DNA from: Telopea speciosissima
Taxonomy: Eukaryota; Streptophyta; Magnoliopsida; Proteales; Proteaceae
DNA: 64,000 bases
Reading direction: 5' to 3'
Assembly (NCBI RefSeq): GCF_018873765.1
Contig: NC_057917.1
Span: 54,615,464 to 54,679,463, forward strand
Shown here: one piece after another, positions 25,567 to 54,915 of the stretch
Layout of the letters: every line of letters starts with the position of its first letter
Numbering within the stretch: position 1 is the stretch's first letter
Notes under the pieces: generated by a model
Told to the model about the DNA's origin: nothing
Seen by the model: only the letters and a program-made list of their open reading frames with translations
Database searches by the model: none
Position numbers and translations under genes: made by a program

Positions 25567-28500
25567 CTAAAAACGACCGATTCCCCAAACCCTGATTGCA
25601 CCATCTGTGTACCCGGTGAACAAAGTGCTTCCATCTGAGCTCCAACTCAAGCTGGTGCAATACAACATCTGCCAAAAAAAAAATCAACAAAAAGACTTAA
25701 AAATGAGAGCTAAACTTATTCTCATACTGCAGTGTGATATATTCAAGGAAAATACTATAGCTACAACCCAGAAGGGGTTACAGGAATTCTGAACCCATCC
25801 CAGAAGTGGATTGTTTCCACATAAAACAGTAGGACCAACTATATTAAGCTATGCTGTGTAAGGTGCACCCATCACCTTACCGGACCATAGCACAAGTATC
25901 CTTGTTCAATAAAATATTGCATACTCAACGTGGACCAATGGTCATCATTTATCACTCAGATTTCTGATAATAAAAGCTTGGCTGGCTTCAAAATCTTAAC
26001 AGTTAACAAAGATCCAAATTTTTACAACAGTGATCATTGATAGCAGTTCACACTCGCAAAATCCAGCTTTACACACGAGGATGGATTCTTTAACATTTTT
26101 TGATCCATCATCCAAGACCACCCAACTCTAACGAAGGAAAAAATAAAAGTGGACCACCTCAGTTTCGCTTCTAATTCTTCTGATTCCAGCACAAAATCTA
26201 AGTTTCAGCTGGTTCACATGTCTTCCCATCAAATAACTTACCATGAATCACCACTATAACACAGTATGATCAATTGGCACCAATCCATGAGCATATCGAC
26301 CCAATTAGACATTAGATCTCCAGGACAACATGATAACCCCATGCATCATGTTGAGTCACAATCAAGGACAGTATAAGCTAAATAATGTATGGACAACAAG
26401 AAACAAAAAATGAGCAGATTTCATCTATTTTAGAGTAAAATCCCACAGTTTCACAACCACACATCACAAAGAAACTATACTGTTCAGCAATCCCAAACCA
26501 ATTATATTCAGCAAGTTTTCTCCACATAAAGGAAATATAAAGATTACTGTATATAAGAACTGCATTCCACTCATCAATAGGGAAGTCAAGAGGATTGTAA
26601 GTTCCACCAAACATGTAATAACTGAAAACACATTATGTTTAAATAAGATACAAATGATTGATTGAATTGTTTAACCCGGTCAAATCTATGCTGCCAATGA
26701 AATAGCACTACCTGACATAAATACATAGCATAAATTCAGTTAGATTGGACATGTTAGACTCACAAGGTTTGGAGAAGTCAGACTAATAAAGGAAGTACAA
26801 GGAAAAGTGGAAACAAAAAGTTCTACTGATAGCCAAGTAAAGGGCGTACCCAATGCACGAGACTCTTGTCACTGCAGGGTCTGGGGAGGATCATAATGTA
26901 TGCAGCCTTCCCTGCTTTCGCAGAGAGGCTGCTTCCAGACTCAAACCTGTGACCTAACAATGGAGCAACCATACCGTTGAAGCAAGGCCCGGCCTCTTCT
27001 ATTGATGGCCAAGTGATTACTATAAAGAGGGTATACCCAGTGCATGAGGCTCCTGCCACTGCAATGGGGAGGATCATAATGTATGCAGCCTGACCCGCTT
27101 TGTGAAGAGGCTGTTTCCCGACTCAAACCCCTGACCACTAGGTCACAATGGAGCAACCTTACCATAGCTCCGAGGTCCACAATTTTGATTATAAAGTTAT
27201 AAATCAGAAACATACGGCCAGAAATGCTTCATAAAGCAGAACAGTACACAAAAATGGTACTCCATAGAAGACCGTCAATTAAGATGAAGGTTACAAATGA
27301 GGTATGACATGAGCACATCAGAAAAAAAAGGCACTTTGGACGAAACAAAAAAACAGCACCAATATGTGGATAATAGGAAGTCGAACAGAGTGTTATGATG
27401 CTGGTCAGAGAGAGAGGAACAGATAATAATGATTTGGGTGGTAATGAGCAAAGATATTCAGTGCTTGTGAATTAACAGAGATATCGCCCCAACAGACTGA
27501 TTAGCTGAAAAAAATTCTTCCAACAGAACCCAATTTATTGTCAAAAGACTATATGAAAGTCCAGTTATCATGGGAAATTTACTAGACTTTTTTTTTAATC
27601 AAGGAATTACGCATGTTAAAAAAGCTACAACAATACACTAAAGGAAATCAACCAAAACAACCCATGCCTAACTACCCATTTGAACATGTAGGATAAACGA
27701 AGATGTCAAATATGCAATTGGTGGTCCAATTTCAACTCTGAATTAAATAAACTGATTTGCTAGTTATTCCAATAAGCTGACGTCCAAACTCGAATTAAGC
27801 ATAGTAATAGCAATCATCAGTCACCACAATGTTCAAGAATCATTAAGATCGAACACTTGCTATGCATATGAGATGGAAAAGGCACATATAGCAAACTTGT
27901 AGCTAAGAATAAATACGCAAAATGAAGAGAAGATAAGTGAAGCATGTAATTCTAATAGACAAACAACTAAACATCAACCCTAAAACCAAATATACCTGAT
28001 TCTTTCCACCAGAGAGTTCGGGTTTCAAGTCCTGAACGACACTCTTGCTTTCCAGATCCCAAATCTTAACACTCTCCTGCGTAGCCGCGCAAAGCCAATA
28101 CCTATTCGGACTGAAACAGAGAGCATGAATAATACCTCCAGCATCAAGCGAATAAAGCCTCTTACCCTCAGCCAAGTCCCATAGCAGGGTCACACCATCC
28201 TTCCCACCACTCGCACACAAAGACCCATCGGGTGAAACAGCAACCGTGTTGACGTACCCTCCATGACCGGCCAATGTGCAGCGGAGCTTACAATTGGTGA
28301 GGTTCCAGACCTTCACGGTCCTATCCCAAGATCCAGAAACGATAGTGGGCTGGAACGTGTTGGGGCTGAACCTCACGCAGCTAACCCAATTGGTGTGGCT
28401 GTCGGTGTCCTGAATGGTGTACTTGCATTCACCAAGTGTGTTCCAGAGCTTTATTGTGCGGTCACGGGAGGCCGAAACAATCTGACGATTGTCGATGGAG

Positions 28501-28838
28501 AAGGCAACGGAGAGGACATCCTTGGTGTGTCCGACAAAACGGCGAGTAGTGGCACCAGTGTTGAGATCCCAAAGACGGAGCTCGCCATCCCATGAGCCAG
28601 AGAGAGCGAACTGACCGTCGGACGAGAGGACAACGTCTTGAACGAAATGAGAGTGGCCAGTAAGGCGGCGACGAGGAACACCGTATGTTTGTTCATCCTT
28701 CGTGAGATGCCAAACGAGGACTGATTTGTCACGGGAGGATGAGACGATCATGTCCGGGTTGTCGATCGGTGTTGCGATCGCGGTCACCATGTCAGAGTGA
28801 CCCTTCATTACCCCCTTCGGCATCAAAGTTTCCGCCAT
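25567..28838 (-). CDS. RACK1: RACK1, ribosome-associated WD40 scaffold
   Basis: Two exons, 28838-27996 (281 codons) and 25668-25567 (33 codons plus TAG), are joined by a 2327 bp GT-AG intron (AATCAG|GTATAT ... TTGGCAG|ATG), phase 0. The 314-residue protein has seven WD40 blades ending VLVW, LRLWD, IKLW, VKVW, LLWD, VKIWD and IRVWGIGRF. It keeps R36 and K38 in SSRDKS, the pair that contacts the 40S subunit in yeast and plant homologues. RACK1 sits at the head of the small ribosomal subunit and docks signalling proteins. Length is slightly below the usual 325-327, the loss lying in the variable loop before [13 protein letters not shown]. The frame is fully open. One intron at this place is usual for plant RACK1 genes. 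Confidence 0.97.
26838..27001 (-). mobile_element. Au SINE, copy 1, in the RACK1 intron
   Basis: On the minus strand the copy runs from gaggccgggccttg through an A-box-like segment and a B-box-like ggtttgagtctgg. It continues through cctctctgcgaaagcaggg to cattgggtacgccctttac, the layout of the tRNA-derived Au SINE. The flanks ctgatagccaag (26826-26837) and ttgatggccaag (27002-27013) look like a slightly mutated TSD. Confidence 0.85.
27027..27178 (-). mobile_element. Au SINE, copy 2, in the RACK1 intron
   Basis: Same orientation and structure as the neighbour: aaggttgctccattgtgacc, ggggtttgagtc, then catgcactgggtatacc at its 3' end. It is more diverged. The flanks give only an approximate duplication (tgattactataaag and tgattataaag). 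Both are antisense to nothing: they are sense relative to the RACK1 transcript. Confidence 0.8.
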
Positions 28839-29140
28839 GTCTTCTCCCTGAAACTCTCTCTCTCTCTCTTGCTCTGCCTACGAGTTCTGCTACTGACTGC
28901 TCGCTTGGAGAAAAAAAGGGTAGTAGAAGAACACGGGCAAATGCAGAAACCCTAATTATCAGGTTTTTATCATCTACGAGAGCTAGGGTTTAGGATTGCA
29001 CGACCGCAACTCCTCAAAGCGTGCGGTCCAGATCTCCTCGGTGTTGGGTTGGGCCAAGCTCCATTCTAATAGGTCCTGCTCCAGCGCCAGCTCCAGCCTA
29101 GGCTAAGGCCGGGCCTGGGCAAGGACTTCAAGGCCCAATT
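28839..29140 (-). promoter_or_regulatory. RACK1 leader and promoter with telo boxes and site II motifs
   Basis: Upstream of the start are a (GA)n-type leader on the minus strand (28855-28872), AAACCCTAA at 28947-28955 and its complement TAGGGTTTA at 28984-28992 (telo boxes). TGGGCC-type site II motifs lie at 29050-29055 and (reverse) 29132-29137. This pairing is typical of plant ribosomal-protein and translation genes, which suits RACK1 co-expression with ribosomes. Confidence 0.7.
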
Positions 29141-42042: not shown

Positions 42043-42645
42043 TTATAAAAGATGCGAAGAACACGTGGTTGGAAGCTTGCACATCTCCTGTAACCACGGA
42101 GTGGAGAGCGGCCAAACTGTCGTACGCATCATCGACAGGGCCTTCCTAGCTAGAGAATCAGCAATGACATTTGCCTCTCTAGGAATGAAAGTGAAAATAC
42201 ATTCACTAAAGTACACAACAATATGCACTATATCAGCTATCACAGGTTGAAGTGTCAGCGGAGCACTCTTGTTGTGATTATTGATGAAGGAGATAACTTG
42301 CTGGTTATCCGATTCTACCTTCAGAAACTACACATCTTCAGATATTGCCTCAAGTAGTCCAAGACAGATCGCTAGTGCTTCCCCCATGATAATACTGTCA
42401 AACCTGCTGATCTCAGATTTAGCAAACACCAGGGCACCACAAAAGTCCCTAAGAATAATCCCAAGTCCACCAATACTCTGGTCTGATGACCAAGAAGCAT
42501 CAGTAGTCAGTGAGATGAAAGGCCTTTGAGGTGGTTGCCAGGTAGAGGTACTGCTCGGCTTAGGGGTGGGACTGTGGCTCTGAATGTGGGAAGGGCTGAG
42601 ACAAGTGAGGGTTGCCAAACCAAGCAGCCTTTGCGAAGGGGGCAA
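42043..42645 (-). pseudogene. L1 ORF2 RNase H domain, frame-shifted
   Basis: FISLTTDASWSSDQSIGGLGIIL carries the first catalytic Asp, MGEALAICLGLLEA the Glu, and VESDNQQVISF the next Asp. FIPREANVIADSLARKAL closes the domain. It lies in a different frame from the upstream reverse transcriptase stretch (frame shift near 42.5-42.65 kb), with a stop after ISEDV. Plant L1 elements often have this C-terminal RNase H. Confidence 0.85.
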
Positions 42646-44744
42646 TGTAAGATGATGTGGTCCGGGCTCTCAATACTAGCTCCACACCGAGTGCAATGAG
42701 GGTCTATGTTCACATTTCTAATTAAAAAACCTTCCCCTGTAGCTAGTCCTGCTGCACAAGCTCTCCAGAGAAAGTTTTTAATTTTCGGCATGGTATGACA
42801 CCCCCAAATGGTTTTCCAAACTCTAGCTGTAGTAGTGGCCCACTTGCTCACTCTTGAAGATGCAGGATTTGTTGGTCGGGGTATTGCCTTGGACTTACAT
42901 TGGAGGAAGTAGGCAAACTTAACTGAATATCTACCGTCTTTAGAAGCTCCCCACATAAGTCTATCCTCACCTGGAAACAAAGGAACCTGTATCTTGAGAA
43001 TGGCATCAACAATATGTTTATGAAAGAGCTGCTGAAGAAGAGGTTGATTCCAGGTACGACAGTCCTGGTTTATAAGCTCTGAGACCCATTGGATAGCACA
43101 ATTCAAGGGACGATCTTGTTGAATTTTGAAGCCCAGAATAGAGGGGAGCCATTTATCACTCCAGATAGCGATCTTATCTCCTTTTCCTAGTTGCCAACAG
43201 AGCCCTTCCTTTATAATTTTCCTACCTTCCAGGATGCTTCTCCAAGCCCATGAAGGGCTGCCTCCAATCTTAGCTTCCATAAAGTAGCACTTTGGGAAGT
43301 ATAAGGCTTTCATAAACAGAGCCCAAGGAAAGGTAGGTTCACTGAAGAGTTTCCAAGCTGCTTTGGAGAGAAGGGCTTTGTTATGAAATGCCGGGTCACG
43401 TAGCCCAAGTCCTCCACACTCCTTTGATTGCCTCAGCTTGTCCCAAGAAAGCCAATGAATTTTGTTCCCTTCCACTGTGTCTCCCCAATAAAAACTGACT
43501 GCCTCCTTGCGCGTTTGCTCATGATGCTTCATTGGAAGCTTGAAATGTGAAGCAGTGTAGTTTGTAATGGGAAGGGCCACCGGCTTAAGAAGAACCTCTC
43601 TCCCAGCATGTGAAAGGAGCTGCTTCATCCAGCCATAAATCTTGTTGCTTCGCCCTTCACTAATATCATGGAAGAGTGCCATCTTATTGGCTCCAATCTC
43701 TGAGGGCAAACCAAGGTATTTAGCTGGTCCATCGCCATACCTAATCTTTGGAATCCTACTAAACCACCGTTTCAGCCGAGAGGGGGTATTGGGGCTAAAG
43801 CACAGACTCGACTTTGCGAAGTTAATAGCTTGACCACTCCCTTTACAAAAATAGTCCACCTTATCTCGAAGATTAAAAATCTCTTGCACCTTGACTGCGA
43901 AAAAGATCAAACAGTCGTTCGCAAAGAGGAGATGAGAGAGGGGAGAAGATCGGTTTTGAACTCTAATCCCTTTAATAAGGCCATCATGCTCTGCTGTCCC
44001 CAACATAGAGCTAAGAGCTTGCATACAGATGACAAAGAGCGTCGGTGATAACGGGTCACTTTGCCAAATTCCCCGGGTCGGCTGTACAGCTCCTCTCTCA
44101 GCTTCATTCACAAGAATGGAATAATAAACTAAGGTGATACATTCCATGATGAGGGCCACAAACTTCTTGGAGAACCCCATTTTGAGCAGCAACCTTTCTA
44201 TAAACGGCCAAGCAAGCCTATCATACGCCCGCTGCATATCGAGTTTTAAGGCTACTAAGCATTTTTTTCCCTTTTTCTTCCTCTTGATATAATGAAAGGC
44301 CTCATGCGCCGTGAAAATGTTATTTGAAATGGCTCGATCAGGGACGAAAGCAGACTGTTGAGGCGAGATAATATCAGGGAGGATGGGCTTGAGTCTTGAA
44401 GCAATGATTTTTGTAACAACCTTTATGGCAACCCCATATAAGCTGATTGGGCGGTACTGCTCAATCTTCTCAGGATTTCCCACTTTAGGGATGAGGCAGA
44501 TGAGGGTGTCATTACACCCTGTAGGAAGCTTTCCTGAAGAGAAAAAACTAGTAACAAACCCATACAGGTCATCCTTAACTAGATCCCAATATTTCTGAAA
44601 AAACAGAGGAGGGAAGCCATCCAAACCTGGAGATTTCAAGGGCTTCATAGCAAAAAGAGCTGATCTGATATCTTCCATAGAAGGTGCAGCACACAGCAGC
44701 TGATTGGTTATCTCGGAGATAGAGGGGTGGACATTGGATAGCAC
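42507..44744 (-). pseudogene. L1 ORF2 reverse transcriptase, long open stretch
   Basis: Open for 745 residues. Motifs: SPGLDGFPPLFFQKYW at 38-53, QYRPISL, FVPDRAISNNIF, the palm motif LKLDMQRAYD (Asp169), GIWQSDPLSP, and FANDC at 274-278. The last is FADD in active elements, so one catalytic Asp is Asn. The zinc-binding region near the end has CTRCGASIESPDHIILHC. In-frame stops at 44811-44813 and near 45076 separate it from the endonuclease. Confidence 0.9.
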
Positions 44745-44810
44745 CGATAAGAGAGCATCATCATCAATAGCTTCGGCCCTGAAAACCCCTTGATAGTATG
44801 ATGAAACTTC

Positions 44811-47406: not shown

Positions 47407-49967
47407 GTGGGGACTCATACTGGAAAGACTAGGAAACCCTTTCCAGTGGGAGTGAAAGCAAAGGAACTCCTTGGAGTGGTACACTCTGATATTTGTGGAC
47501 CGCTCAATGTGGGGACCCATACTAAAAAGACTTACTTCATCACTTTTACTGATGATTTCTCTAAGTATGGGTACATTTATCTACTAAGTAGGAAATCTGA
47601 AGCATTTGAATGCTTCAGACGCTATAGAACTGAAGTGCAAAATCAGTTGGGAAGAAACCTTAAGGTTTTAAGAACCGATCGTGGTGGAGAATACAACTCC
47701 ACTGAGTTTGAAATGTTTTGTGAGGAACATGGAATTATTAAGCAAAAGACTATGTCTTTCACACCACAATAGAACGACGTGGCTGAAAGACGGAATAGAA
47801 CACTACTTAATGTAGTACGTTGCATGTTATCTCACTCCACTCTCTCCAAGAAGTTCTGGGGAGAGGCCATTCTCACAGCAAATTATATCTTGAATAGAAT
47901 TCCCACCAAATCTGTGGAGACTACACCTTATGAACTGCGGACAGGTAGGAAACCAAATTTAGAAAATCTAAGGAAGTGGGGATCTACAGCCCACGTACTA
48001 ATACCTGAGCCATATAGAAACAAGTTGGATTCTAGAACAATCAGATGCAAGTTCATAGGATATCCAGAAGGCTCTCAAAAGGATATAGATTTTATCACCC
48101 TGAAAAAGGAGTCATTGAGAGTCGTGATGCGGAATTTCTAGAGAAATTAGAAGAGGAGCCGCAGCAGGAGGATACAGAACCCCTGCATGTTATCAATGAT
48201 GATTATGGTATGGACCCTCATGAGGAACAAAGATTTTTGGATCAAGGAACCCATGTTCCTGAAAATCAAGTTGATCATCCGGAACAAGACCCGGAACCTG
48301 GGGTAAGTAGGAATAAAAGAACCAGAGCACCTCCAACCTACTTAGATGACTACTACCTTTATTTATGTGAACCATCTTGTCATACAGTTGACACGGATGC
48401 AGAAGAAATAGTCGATCCCGTAACCTATAGCGAAGCGATAAAATCACGAGAATCAGGTGAATGGTTAAATGCCATGCTGGAAGAAATTGATTCCATTACA
48501 AAGAATCAAGTGTGGGATCTTTGTGACCTACCAAAGGGTAGAAATGTCATAGGTTGCAAATGGGTGCTTAAGAAAAAATACAAATTTGATGGGTCTGTTG
48601 ATAAATTTAAGGCCCGTTTAGTCGCAAAAGGTTACACCCAAAAGGGAGGAATAGACTACCAGGAAACTTACTCACCGATAGCCAAATTTGCCTCTATTAG
48701 ATTAATATTGGCTCTTGTTGCACATCTGGACTTAGAATTGTTTCAGATGGACGTGAAAATCGCCTTTCTAAATGGCGAGTTGGAAGAAACCATATACATG
48801 CGACAACCCGAGGGTTTTCAGGTCGTGGGACAGGAAGATAAAGTGTGTAGACTTAAAAAGTCTTTGTATGGTTTAAAACAGTCCTCACAACAGTGGTACC
48901 TGATATTCCACAAAACAATCCTTAAATTAGGATTCGTGGCTAACAAGTTGGACAATTGTGTATATATCTTGAAGAGTGGGAGTAGTTTTACCATTCTCTC
49001 CTTATATGTTGATGATATACTGTTAGCTGGAAATGATATAGAAATGTTGAATAAGACCAAGTATGAACTTAGTAGCAGATTTGAAATGAAGGAAATGGGA
49101 GAAGCATCATATATCCTAGGAATTTAAATCTCTAGAGACAGGACACAATGTAAGTTGTGTTTGAGTCAGGAAAAATACTTGAGTTTTGTGTTGAAAAGAT
49201 TCGGAATGCAGAATAGCAATCCCTCATCAACTCCAATTGTTATGGGAAACGCTTTGTCGAAAAGCCAATGCCCTCAAGAAGGACAGGAAAAGTTAAATGT
49301 ACCTTATGCTCAGGCAATAGGTAGTTTGATGTACGCCATGTTGTGTACACGACCGGATTTAGCTTATCCAGTCGGATTAGTAAGCAGATACCAAAGTAAT
49401 TCCGGTTCTGCCCATTGGGAAGCAGTGAAGAGGATTATGAAGTACATCAAAGAAACTAAACACTTGAAATTATATTTTCAAGCAGAAAAACTTGAGGTCA
49501 TTGGATACTCTAACGCTGACTTTGGAGGGGATAGAGATGACTGTAAATCCACCTCTGGACATGAGTTTATATATGGAGGTGCAGCTGTTTCTTGGGGCAG
49601 TTAGAAACAGGGGTGTGTTGCTAGGCACACACAGGAAGCCGAGTACATTGCTTGTAGTATGGCAAGTACTCATGCCGTCTGGATTAAACGGTTCTTAATG
49701 GAATTTGGGTTGGACCTTGTAAATGGACCAGTGAAAATATTCTGTGATAATCAAGCCGAAATAAGCTTAATACACAGTGATGCAAATAGTTCGAAGCGAA
49801 AACACATAGAAATTCAATATCATTATATACGTGATATAGAAGAAAAAGGTAAAATTAAAGTAACCTATATACCTACGAGTGATATGATAGCCGATCCCCT
49901 TACAAAGGGAGTTCGTGCGGAAACTTACATCAAACATGTAAATTTGATGGGACTTAGAACAGTCTAA
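47407..49967 (+). pseudogene. Copia fossil pol remains
   Basis: Integrase begins inside the GAG_pre-integrase end (KELLGVVHSDICGPLN), with FTDDFSKYGYIYLL, VLRTDRGGEYNS and a [13 protein letters not shown] segment. Reverse transcriptase has WVLKKKYKFDGSVDKFKARL, FQMDVKIAFLNGELEE, SLYGLKQS and LYVDDILLAGND. RNase H has GYSNADFGGDRDDCKST and the end IRDIEEKGKIKVTYI. Broken fossil. Confidence 0.9.
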
Positions 49968-50577: not shown

Positions 50578-51407
50578 GCTCGGGCCGAGATGACAGGTTC
50601 CCCTTTGTGGGTTGAATCCGCTGGACTGTTGCTCAGAGTAGAGCTCATTGCATCGAGCTGCTTCATGGCCTATCAAGCCACACATGTGACAGAACATGGG
50701 CAACTTTTCATACTGTATTTTTACTTGAACCACAGCTCCTGACCGGCGCCGGAAAGATAGAACTCCTTTCAGGGGCTTTGTAATATCCACCTGAACTCTG
50801 CATCTAAAATATACCACTCGTTGGCCATACTGGCTTCCTTGAATCAATTAGGCCACTGTAGGGTTTCCAAGTTGAGTGGTGAGTTGAAAGGCAAACTCCA
50901 GCGATAATAGATCAATTGGAAGGTTGCTGATCTGTATCCAAAACTCAGTAAGTTTGAAACTCCAGTCTTCATCGTCTCTCCACTGCTCTAGCACCAAAAG
51001 ATTACCTGAGACAGACCATGGGCCTTCCTCAAGCACATTCTTGACGTCATTCCTATGCTGAAAACGGAAGAGGTACTTGTGGTCGGATAGGGCCGAGACG
51101 ACAACCGGGTACCTGGTATTCCAGGCCAGGGGGAGAGCCTCCAAGACAGCTTGCTTCCGATATGGTTTCCCAGGCAGGATATACCCAACTAGAGTATTGG
51201 CCCAGGATACTTGGACTTCATCTTCAATGGCGTCATCCACATCCAGTATAGCTTCCTCTGATATTGGTGCGGTTCCTGGAGCAGCAGGCCGGTGAGAGGG
51301 GGGGGGATGGTGATGAGGGTACTGTGGAGATGAAGGTAGGGAGAGAAGTGGGGCGTGACGGTGGTCGAGCCCTGTGATTAGGTCTCTTTGGAGCATGGTT
51401 CACCATG
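50446..51407 (-). pseudogene. L1 ORF1: DUF4283 and CCHC knuckle
   Basis: The start lies near 51407 (MVNHAPKRPN...), with a Pro-rich N-terminus. The DUF4283 region has WANTLVGYILPGKPYRKQAV, HDVKNVLEEGPWSV-like and TEFWIQISNLPIDLLS. After a frame break and an in-frame stop near 50848 come VQVDITKPLKGVLSF and the knuckle CHMCGLIGHEAARC. The protein binds L1 RNA in relatives. It is interrupted downstream by the copia insertion. Confidence 0.85.
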
Positions 51408-51742
51408 CTGACGAAGGGAAACAGATCGGAGAGAAGAAACAAGCTCAGGCAATCACGTGGAGGGAAAACTTCACTTAAGATGGAAGGACGCGTCTTCCTA
51501 GACAGAAATGAAAGCAAAACTAGTGATGGTAGCTTGGAAACAAAGACATAGAGGACGTGGCCAGAGCAGACACTGGAAAGAACAGAGGTCAAAGACGTCA
51601 AGGGGAGGAAGAAGAGGGTTTAGAGTTAGTATTCGAAGAGAAACACCGAAGTCTCCAAACATCTCTAAGCAGTAATGGGCGAACAGGAGAACCGTGGTGA
51701 GTAAATGCCGCAGCAATGGTACAAGGAAAGTGAGGAGGAACT

Positions 51743-52012
51743 TGATACGATCATAGGTAGTTGGGTCATTGTGTTGGGTTTAGTCTATTAGGAGTAGATG
51801 GGTAATTTGTGTTGTGTTAGTCTATTAGGGGTAGATGGGTAATTTTGGTAGAATTTGGCTATATAATGTAAAGCAGGAGATTGTGAAAGGGAATGAAGAA
51901 TTAACTCTACTTCTCTCTTTGTCTGTGTCATTCTGATTTCTCTCTATCTCTCTCCGTCTTCTTCTTCTTCTTCTCTCGTCTTCTTCCTCTGTCTCTAACC
52001 ATTGACATATCA
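51743..52012 (+). repeat. 5' LTR of the PPR-carrying element
   Basis: 270 bp; contains two gtctattagg-gtagatgggtaattt repeats, a TATA-like gctatataatg and a CT-rich end. Confidence 0.92.
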
Positions 52013-52086
52013 TTGGTCCGACCTGCCGGATCTTCTATCTCGGTCATAACATTGGTGCTTTCATTGAGAGAAATTGGCAACCAACC

Positions 52087-52770
52087 ATGGCCGACGAACT
52101 CTGCCTCATCCCATCGTTCAACCTTGCTCAAGAATTGAAGGACATTCGTGCCTTATTGCTTGATTGCAAGAAGAACTGCTTCAAGATGCTAAACAATATA
52201 TCAGATCTACGGCTTAGTTCTGTGGCAATCAATGAGCAATCAAAGGAACTTCAACATCTGGTACGTGAATTAATCGACGAAGAAAATTCCAACGCCATGG
52301 CAGATCTTGAATCTCTGGCACAAGAAGTTGATTCTGGTGCTATGTTCACTGAAGTTGATGGGGCTTTGATTCCTACCATCATGGGCCAGAATCCTATTGC
52401 ATCAGAGCTAATTCCTGCTTTGGATCAGAGACCATTTGAAGAGCCAGCGTCGCTTTCTTCTTCGATCCCTGCCCTGCCGGACCGGATTCGAGATCAGCAG
52501 GAATCTGGGATTGATGTCTTCGTCACTCAAGGAGACCAGGCCTTCAACGATGCAGCCATGGAGCAGAATCTGGTTGCTTCAACGATGGTGGTGGCAACAG
52601 AGCTCGTCCCTTCCTTCGCCAATCAAAATCCAAGTGGAACTGAGCACGTTCCTGTTGTTGTATCTTCCGGCATGCCCAAGGCTGATCGGGAAATCACCAT
52701 CGGTGCAGCTCGGCTCTTCATTCCACGGCGATGGAAAACCAGCTTCAATCCACCCAATCCGTTCATCTAA
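52087..52770 (+). CDS. Unknown 227-residue frame in the LTR element
   Basis: It starts 74 bp after the 5' LTR with a good context (accatggccgac). The first 90 residues are Leu/Glu/Lys-rich and probably helical (LAQELKDIRALLLDC, NEQSKELQHLVRELIDEE). The rest is Ala/Pro/Ser-rich with repeated NPxASELIPAL-like phrases, ending in AARLFIPRRWKTSFNPPNPF. I do not recognise a family; no gag core or CCHC knuckle is seen. It could be a derived gag-like leader protein or captured host sequence. Part of an LTR element, so treated as possibly non-functional. Confidence 0.4.
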   Translation: MADELCLIPSFNLAQELKDIRALLLDCKKNCFKMLNNISDLRLSSVAINEQSKELQHLVRELIDEENSNAMADLESLAQEVDSGAMFTEVDGALIPTIMGQNPIASELIPALDQRPFEEPASLSSSIPALPDRIRDQQESGIDVFVTQGDQAFNDAAMEQNLVASTMVVATELVPSFANQNPSGTEHVPVVVSSGMPKADREITIGAARLFIPRRWKTSFNPPNPFI

Positions 52771-53129
52771 CTTCCTCCCCTGGTCCCGTTCTTGTTTTGC
52801 TCCTCACCGTCTCGAGGTTCTAGTTGCGTTCATGGCCTTGCCGGTCTATCAACGATCTTGAACCTAAGCACTGTGCAACCTCTGATTGTGTTTGGCAACG
52901 CTGTCTTTGATGCGCAGGCGGATGCGTTCGTCGTTACGACATGGATAGGGATAGCGGGATGGATCTTTCGACCGCCACGGAGCCACCACCATCTCTGCAC
53001 GCATCTAGTGTAGGCATCTCATTGTTGGACGGCAAGGTCCGGACTGTATGGACGCCATGGATTCCAATTTCTCTTTATTCTCATTTCTTGAATGCATTAT
53101 ATGCCCCTGTTAGTTGTATTCACAGTTCA

Positions 53130-54291
53130 ACCATGGCAACAAGTATTCAACGAATGCCTGAGTTCTGCGTCCAAGCCAATGTCATTACTTACAATGTAAT
53201 GATCAAGCTCTATGCTAGAGATGATCGCAAAGACTTGCTCGTGTTTGTGTTGGAACGGATTTTGGAGCAAGGCCTTCACCTATCATCGTCTTCTCCCAGC
53301 AACAACCTGATTTTTGTCCGATAAGTCCGCAGTTATCCATTTTTACGGTTTCCCATTGCAACAACCAGAAATTTCATTTGACCGTCTGAATTCGAAGATC
53401 ATTGTTCTCTCCGAAACCAAGAGGCCTCGGTCAAACTCTCTCTTCCATATGTACTCCTCTTATGGGGAATCTGGTTTTGCGATGCGGGTATTTGAGAAAA
53501 TGTCGACCGGAATGTGGTCTCTTGGATTTCGATTAGTGATGGCTTAGTCGATGATGAGAGGCCTGTTGAAGCTCTTCAGATGTTTGCACACATAGAAGAT
53601 GATGGTGTTGCACCCAATAATGCGACCATGGTTGAAGCTCTTGCACCTTGGCAATTTTTTAATCCCTCATGCATTCACGCCGTCTTTAAAAGCAGGTCTG
53701 AACGTGGCTGAAGCTCCCTCACCTTGGCATTTCCAGTTTCTCTTAGAAATGTTGGCTTATGTTAATGAGGATTGTGGCGTACAATGTGATGAGCATCCTT
53801 GTAATGATGACTGTGGGGTATCTTGTGATGGGCAGATGAATAGCATTGTGAGCATTACAATGCTGCACTCCACTCGTTGCAGGCATTTGACTTCACGATT
53901 AGCTCATATTCTTGGATGGTGGGGTAAGGCCGTACTGATCCGCAATCAGCCCCTTCTGTGGGAGTTGATTATTGGGTTTGAAGTAATGGAGCTCACAATT
54001 CAACACATGTTACCAAAATTCAATGAGTGTTGATGGGACAGTATGATACTAGATATTTACTTTGCAATTGGTTTGGTATATGGGCTGGATTGCGTGCTGT
54101 TTGCTACATCAGAAGGATGGATTTTTGTGCAGCTTCGACCCTATCGCCAGCATTCTATTGCTTTATGCGCAACGAGCGATGGAGCTGTATGGGGTGCACT
54201 CTTGGGAGGTTGTCGAGTTCATACCAACATTGAAGTTGGGGAACGGATTGCAAAAAAGCTGCATGCTTTCACAGGTTTAAGCAATAAATAG
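53130..54291 (+). pseudogene. Captured, degenerate PPR protein sequence
   Basis: Pieces in several frames match PLS-type pentatricopeptide repeats. They are NVITYNVMIKLYAR at 53.2 kb, SLFHMYSSYGESGFAMRVFE at 53.44 kb, RPVEALQMFAHIEDDGVAPN at 53.55 kb, and an E-type end WGALLGGCRVHTNIEVGERI at 54.2 kb followed by a stop. In hosts such proteins edit or process organelle RNA. Here the pieces lie between the LTRs of the element and no frame spans them. The source gene is outside the window. Confidence 0.75.
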
Positions 54292-54381
54292 TCACACAAA
54301 ATAAGCGACGTCTGGCATCGATCATCACCTGTTTGTGATATTGTTTGAACCTTGAGGACAAGGTTCTGAAGGGGAGGGCAA

Positions 54382-54653
54382 TGATACGATCATAGGTAGT
54401 TGGGTCATTGTGTTGGGTTTAGTCTATTAGGAGTAGATGGGTAATTTGTGTTGTGTTAGTCTATTAGGGGTAGATGGGTAATTTGGTAGAATTTGGCTAT
54501 ATAATATAAAGCAGGAGATTGTGAAAGGGAATGAAGAATTAACTCTACTTCTCTCTTTGTCTCTGTCATTCTGATTTCTCTCTATCTCTCTCCGTCTTCT
54601 TCTTCTTCTTCTTCTCTCGTCTTCTTCCTCTGTCTCTAACCATTGACATATCA
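54382..54653 (+). repeat. 3' LTR of the PPR-carrying element
   Basis: 272 bp, nearly identical to 51743-52012; one additional ttc unit in its CT-rich part explains most of the length difference. Confidence 0.92.
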
Positions 54654-54915
54654 GAACTCGTCGTCAAAAGTCGCCATGGAAACCAGATACAGTGATACAA
54701 ACAGGTTCACGAAGGGAGAGAGAGGGGAGAAAGCAGACACAGAAGCAGGGAGCTACCTTTCACGTCATTAAAGACGGAGTAAGAAACATGCCATTAGAGA
54801 CGGAAGGGAGAGGGAGGGGAGAAACATTTTCTAAGTTCACAGGGACTTGGTGGGTGCCAAACCAGTAAAGATTGACGAGTAGGTAAGTTCAAGCACCAGG
54901 CATTCATAATTAAAT

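Follow-up and report, generated by a model that had tools for sequence, protein, structure and literature searches.

Retroviruses are known to transduce cellular genes, and plant long terminal repeat (LTR) retrotransposons are also known to capture host sequence, a process mostly described for single genes. Bs1 of maize lacks a full gag-pol and combines parts of three host genes in a chimeric frame (PMC13317346), intact LTR elements of maize B73 carry host gene fragments, with at least 189 captures in 425 elements (PMC2774510), and NLR retroduplicates in pepper and other plants derive from spliced mRNA, sit mostly in non-autonomous elements and favour one gene class (PMC5664825). The element described here is a short LTR retrotransposon holding pieces of host genes, several of them pentatricopeptide repeat (PPR) genes. 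It lies in a 64,000-nucleotide stretch of Telopea speciosissima DNA, hereafter the window (RefSeq assembly GCF_018873765.1, contig NC_057917.1, forward-strand positions 54,615,464 to 54,679,463; G000:C2:54615464-54679463 in our numbering). Genome searches covered the 822,943,500-base assembly.

Compared with Bs1, gene sets in the present family vary by lineage and are mostly PPR, two primer sites occur, and one join is of splice type. The focal element holds at least four donors, unlike the maize B73 captures, and whereas NLR retroduplicates comprise whole or near-whole genes, each element here carries short pieces of several genes. A first-pass annotation of the window had called capture of PPR genes unusual, a view that PMC3726574 qualifies: PF01535 (PPR), though under-represented among LTR captures in rice and sorghum, ranks among the ten commonest captured domains in both. 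Here, by contrast, PPR genes make up 8 of the 14 donors that could be named (places outside elements), in a small sample biased by entry through a PPR-bearing element. LTR gene capture is already known; what is new is that multi-gene elements across a family, a cargo rich in PPR pieces, frame keeping and paired primer sites occur in combination. Literature searches returned no paper combining LTR retrotransposon, gene capture and pentatricopeptide, and a search for paired primer-binding sites in LTR retrotransposons led to genome-editing papers only.

We consider it very likely that the focal element is one copy of a family of short, non-autonomous LTR retrotransposons, of probable Ty3/gypsy descent, that has repeatedly taken up pieces of host mRNA by template switching, with PPR pieces the commonest. 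The elements are real LTR insertions carrying sense pieces from several donors each, introns have been lost exactly at two donors, and copies share their cargo. Reverse transcriptase would switch templates and so bring mRNA pieces into the interior, presumably inside particles that an autonomous relative provides. In locus L017 at least one piece may have entered through a splice-joined transcript, joins that keep one open frame may have been favoured in several lineages, and either of two tRNAs could prime reverse transcription and thereby set LTR length. If so, in-frame fusion of several spliced mRNAs would constitute a natural exon-shuffling device, whose main donors seen are PPR genes, acting on organelle RNA, and tandem primer sites would record primer choice in the genome as LTR length. 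This makes it testable whether an open frame plays a role in genomic RNA survival and whether capture in plants, like retroviral transduction, draws on read-through and splicing.

The focal element and its cargo

The element spans window positions 51743-54653 (2,911 bp, interior 2,369 bp). It has direct LTRs and a target-site duplication (TSD), a primer-binding site after the 5' LTR and a polypurine tract before the 3' LTR (Table 1). The LTR pair aligns over 269 bases with 2 substitutions and two indels (1 and 3 bp), an identity of 99.3% without gaps and 97.8% with gaps; the 2.9-kb length, roughly 99% LTR identity and exact 5-bp TSD reported in the first-pass annotation are thereby confirmed. 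At an LTR-dating substitution rate of 7e-9 this divergence corresponds to ~0.5 million years, although the rate may not be that of this plant. At 1.3e-8, the value used in PMC5664825, it corresponds to ~0.3 million years, with the same caveat. No gag or pol family was found among Pfam matches of the seven forward frames scanned, again as claimed. These results support a young, non-autonomous LTR retrotransposon with captured host sequence.

Capture of one host PPR gene, as first proposed, is ruled out by three PPR donors plus other genes. The PPR pieces themselves are real, and matching host genes were located elsewhere in the genome, at L041, L032 and L063 (Table 1). They total about 420 bp of the interior and are accompanied by a decayed lyase-like piece and by a phosphatidylserine synthase piece that the first-pass annotation had missed. 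Judged by sequence similarity, the cargo is a mosaic of several host genes with at least four donors. PPR motifs were called by Pfam, and the class names P, PLS-DYW and PLS-E were assigned by us; the L032 frame bears E, E+ and DYW motifs, and L063 is a 512-aa frame with an E motif. The focal pieces are weak alone in Pfam (best PPR_2, E=2.7e-4) and do not constitute a functional PPR gene, as they come from three genes and lie separately in broken frames. The better preserved L019 copy of the lyase-like piece matches 2-hydroxyacyl-CoA lyase at E=1.6e-7.

The synthase piece joins three exons of a donor at C2:51965926-51966245 and beyond. Both intervening introns (141 bp and about 1.26 kb, sized by hand, each GT..AG) are exactly absent, and the piece is therefore derived from spliced RNA; exon ends of a synthase paralogue on C11 agree with those of the donor. 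Intron absence, a marker suggested by the first-pass annotation, says little about the PPR pieces because their donors are single long frames, but the synthase piece settles the point.

All five recognised pieces (three PPR, synthase and lyase-like) lie in sense. The likeness of the PPR pieces to three PPR genes, in sense and over 83-201 bp, raises the idea that the cargo regulates its parent PPR genes through small RNAs, which we judge improbable from the sequences at hand: an identity of 85-92% would leave few perfect 21-mers, and sense orientation also speaks against it.

Table 1. Features of the focal LTR retrotransposon (window positions) and genomic places of the PPR donors
Feature	Position	Strand	Remarks
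Left TSD, GAACT	51738..51742	.	read directly; identical to 54654-54658
5' LTR, 270 bp	51743..52012	+	direct repeat with 54382-54653
Primer-binding site, complement of tRNA-Tyr 3' end	52014..52031	+	starts 1 nt after LTR
Putative second primer-binding site	52052..52070	+	directly behind the LTR where this is longer, as in L002 and other relatives
5' frame, 227 residues	52087..52770	+	no Pfam family; one predicted long helix
Decayed 2-hydroxyacyl-CoA-lyase-like piece	about 52828..52950	+	likeness by eye to better preserved L019 copy
P-class PPR piece, 135 bp	53144..53278	+	84.6% to L041 (C2:4479328-4479847), 752-aa PPR frame
PLS-DYW PPR piece, 201 bp	53433..53633	+	86.1% to L032 (C10:48706314-48706515), 612-aa frame
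Stretch common to receptor-kinase-bearing L042, L044, L045	53628..53839	+	91% to L042 and L044
Phosphatidylserine synthase piece, three exons fused without their two introns	53900..54100	+	PF03034 E=3.2e-16; exon-wise match to donor
PLS-E PPR gene piece, E motif, 83 bp	54178..54260	+	91.6% to L063 (C2:43059646-43059728)
Palindrome GAACCTTGAGGACAAGGTTC	54347..54366	+	precedes polypurine tract
Polypurine tract region	54367..54381	+	purine-rich, directly before 3' LTR
3' LTR, 272 bp	54382..54653	+	direct repeat with 5' LTR
Right TSD, GAACT	54654..54658	.	exact match to left copy
PPR donors	C2:4479328, C10:48706314, C2:43059646, C1:22656980, C10:19757287, C1:5068878, C8:32410995, C2:77308464

Related copies and the donors of their cargo

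Each family search scored at most 40 candidates (for the focal search, 40 of 291). Among these, near-full-length copies with the same LTRs and cargo, as the first-pass annotation anticipated, were found at C1:26725366-26728290 (97%) and C6:21300038-21302939 (94%), each with its own TSD (CATGA and GTTGT). Since these copies lie on two other chromosomes with different TSDs, a local tandem duplication is ruled out. Because the cargo is common to the 97% and 94% copies, and because the PPR donors differ by 8-15% against 0.75% for the LTRs, capture is older than the focal insertion, in agreement with the earlier suggestion. A further PPR-bearing stretch with family tail sequence lies at G000:C2:54705279-54706346, about 26 kb right of the window.

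We oriented and read 23 family loci, the focal copy being L001. Paired LTRs are present in 17 (L001-L003, L009-L011, L013-L015, L017-L021, L023, L024, L028) and no LTR pair in six (L012, L016, L022, L025-L027). Exact 5-bp TSDs flank 14 of the 17 paired elements, with the ends of L002 and L017 placed by eye; the three exceptions are L024, which has none, L021 (GTTAA/GTTAG) and L011 (TAAAC one base off, where the LTR end differs). Common to the family are the LTRs and the 3' end ahead of the polypurine tract; the middle varies by lineage. The focal-type 5' frame occurs in 15 of the 17, L015 and L019 being those without it.

Thirty forward frames of relatives were scanned with Pfam, and none contained a gag or pol family. 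Thirteen match PPR (L015, L017, L018, L019, L028, L035, L036, L049), kinase (L042, L045) or synthase (L009) families at E<=0.001. Weak TPP-enzyme domain matches occur in two frames (0.022 and 0.0023), DUF740 is the only match of one L015 frame, and the remainder have none at 0.05. Sequence searches added an SR-protein kinase in L019 (E=2.1e-6) and, in L018, an NRAMP-like transporter (E=9.6e-4) with a weak RING/IBR match. The NRAMP-like piece is without a 96-bp donor intron (sized by hand), so that introns are absent at two donors, two at the synthase of the focal element and one at the NRAMP-like gene of L018.

The six non-PPR donors are synthase, NRAMP-like, RING/IBR-like, SR-kinase-like, transporter-like and EMF1-like. 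For the EMF1-like (L017) and transporter-like (L019, 3716-3875) pieces the names are our presumption from motifs, and scans of both gave no match. Six further donor places carry no gene name (C8:15668113, C3:21947806, C3:4954314, C7:1404748, C4:9028045, C7:32511309), and the genome searches yielded no donor for the lyase-like or the receptor-kinase pieces.

Pack-type elements likewise hold several gene fragments (cf. the review PMC13317346), which invites the explanation that capture took place at the DNA level, as in Pack-MULEs or Helitrons, with an LTR element inserted into the mosaic or built around it. We regard this as highly improbable given the exact intron loss at two donors, the lack of any reverse-strand family in the 10 frames scanned out of the 14 longest (100 aa or more), against 13 of 30 forward frames with a match, and LTRs with TSDs that directly enclose the mosaic, although no search was aimed at DNA-transposon or Helitron ends.

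Joins, reading frames and selection

Template switching, the route we favour, is consistent with short identities between donors at two joins. In L019, GGAGGT is common to the PLS-PPR and P-PPR donors at their join, with a 6-7 bp overlap. In L017 a 988-bp piece of another gene interrupts a PPR gene; at the right join about 6 bp are common to both donors, and the left join falls exactly at GT in the PPR donor (ATG/GTTAGT, the slash marking the join) and at AG in the other (TTTCAG/GATTCC). These two joins are as expected if a transcript was spliced and reverse transcription then switched template once. L017 thus resembles retroviral transduction, with read-through, splicing and a single switch, and differs in being a plant element without its own enzymes and a single example.

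Reading frame was examined at 16 neighbouring donor-piece pairs no more than 30 nt apart in L015, L017, L018, L019 and L028. No pair of this kind exists in the focal element, and the SR-kinase/transporter pair of L019, separated by 84 nt, was excluded. The frame of a piece was taken as the one free of stops; for two short pieces that each have two open frames, and for the EMF1-like right end, it was set by eye from the donor. Joins are in frame in 14 of 16 cases against 1/3 expected (binomial p=1.2e-5; both misses in L015), in 11 of 12 excluding four within-gene jumps (two of them in L018, the others in L015 and L028; p=4.7e-5), and in all five involving a non-PPR gene of known kind (p=0.004). 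When frames were shifted at random, the combined p was 3.8e-7 in five elements whose junctions were chosen by hand and 4.4e-7 in ten elements whose junctions were set automatically (L018 alone in the latter set, p=0.05). These p values are too small, because lineages share pieces, the five elements were chosen after their long frames had been seen, and some automatic junctions may fall inside true pieces. Open frames reach 822 codons in L018, 584 in L017, 538 in L023, 483 in L009, 466 in L015 and 453 in L019. The L018 frame (L018:803-3268, minus strand) fuses PPR, RING/IBR-like, NRAMP-like and further PPR pieces.

One tentative explanation for such frames is that stop-free host coding pieces are kept as filler: they would leave the genomic RNA with one long frame and thereby spare it nonsense-mediated decay, a role for which long, intron-poor PPR mRNAs would be suited. 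The excess of in-frame joins, including those with non-PPR genes, and the long open frames in six elements are as it would predict. It is opposed by the focal element, which shows no frame keeping (p=0.21), by the pieces shared among lineages, and by stops in sister copies, which are about neutral in one pair (2 vs 1.9 expected) and fewer in the other (1 vs 3.9 expected).

The 227-residue 5' frame, whose codons occupy 52087-52767, called unrecognised in the first-pass annotation, is indeed so, having no Pfam family and only chance-level matches in the PDB (best E 0.25); an identity as gag was set aside on the same grounds. Its AlphaFold2 single-sequence model has a mean predicted local distance difference test score of 50, with a confident helix at residues 13-82 and low confidence elsewhere. 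Over the first 70 codons the ratio of nonsynonymous to synonymous substitution (dN/dS), given throughout as a point estimate, is 0.36 in 15 elements. L015, in which the frame diverges after about ten codons, is excluded from these, and its inclusion gives 0.45; L019 has no such frame. In six elements, one per lineage, the ratio is 0.36 vs 0.99 and 0.68 in shifted frames. Between sister copies it is 0.71 (L001/L002) and 0.72 (L001/L003). Overall, the pattern shows what appears to be purifying selection on the 5' frame.

This constraint, together with the confident predicted helix over the same 5' stretch, could mean that the fused frame, or at least its 5' part, yields a chimeric protein helping the element. 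We find this rather doubtful, as dN/dS of the cargo between sister copies ranges from 0.55 to 1.16 and reaches 2.62 on ten changes in one pair (L009/L010), cargo varies among lineages, and neither Pfam nor the PDB returned a relative of known function. A fuller account would have host exons, mostly from PPR genes, harvested under selection for a continuous frame, gag-pol replaced by stop-free filler or chimeric protein, entry in some cases through splicing of read-through transcripts, and two tRNA primers setting LTR length; we offer it as a possibility that we do not favour.

Several observations also weigh against repeated mRNA capture by a Ty3/gypsy-derived family, our preferred interpretation. 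The Ty3/gypsy origin is one we presume from a short tail and from a stretch of L015 that resembles gag; Pfam called neither, giving DUF740 alone for that L015 frame, and no autonomous partner supplying gag and pol was found, in a hunt not carried to completion. The splice-type join is a single case, in L017, and the focal synthase piece begins 28 bp inside an exon and so did not enter at a splice site. Frame keeping, tested at automatic junctions, is absent not only from the focal L001 but also from L013 (p=0.34), L014 (0.27) and L028 (0.35). The cargo is near neutral between sisters, with dN/dS of 0.55 for L018/L020, 0.71 for L018/L024, 0.80 for L020/L024 and 1.16 for L023/L021. Lastly, three of the eight PPR donors read as genes; the other five were judged PPR from the element side alone, and their status as non-element sequence from there being no other family matches beside them.

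Primer sites, the 3' end and neighbouring sequences

The 3' ends of 13 genomic tRNA-Tyr genes match the first primer site (reversed control 0). The putative second site lies 39 nt beyond it and has one match in the window against 0.01 expected, with no other copy in the window at <=2 mismatches. Both sites occur in 13 of the 17 LTR-paired elements (13-base cores, <=2 mismatches), and the strict two-site pattern has 10 exact genome matches (reversed control 0). In 9 of 17 elements the LTR stops 1-4 nt short of the tRNA-Tyr site, and in 6 of 17 it stops 1-2 nt short of the second site, three of these six (L002, L014, L028) having the tRNA-Tyr site inside the LTR; L013 and L024 fell in neither clear class. 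L001 and L002, which are 97% identical, belong to different classes. The simplest reading of these patterns is that either tRNA can prime and that primer choice would set the LTR end.

The palindrome before the polypurine tract is the sole window match to its sequence at <=3 mismatches (0 in shuffles) and is kept with small changes at aligned family 3' ends. A simple hairpin there was considered and rejected, as RNA folding of 54330-54382 (z -2.98) predicts a different structure.

Just left of the element, at window positions 50848-51399, lies a reverse-strand frame that resembles ORF1 of a long interspersed nuclear element (LINE) by eye, and the focal element may sit in or beside a LINE. Elsewhere in the window, frames recognised by eye include a LINE reverse transcriptase (42507-44810), a copia-like pol (48036-49127) and a RACK1-like WD-repeat protein (27903-28877).

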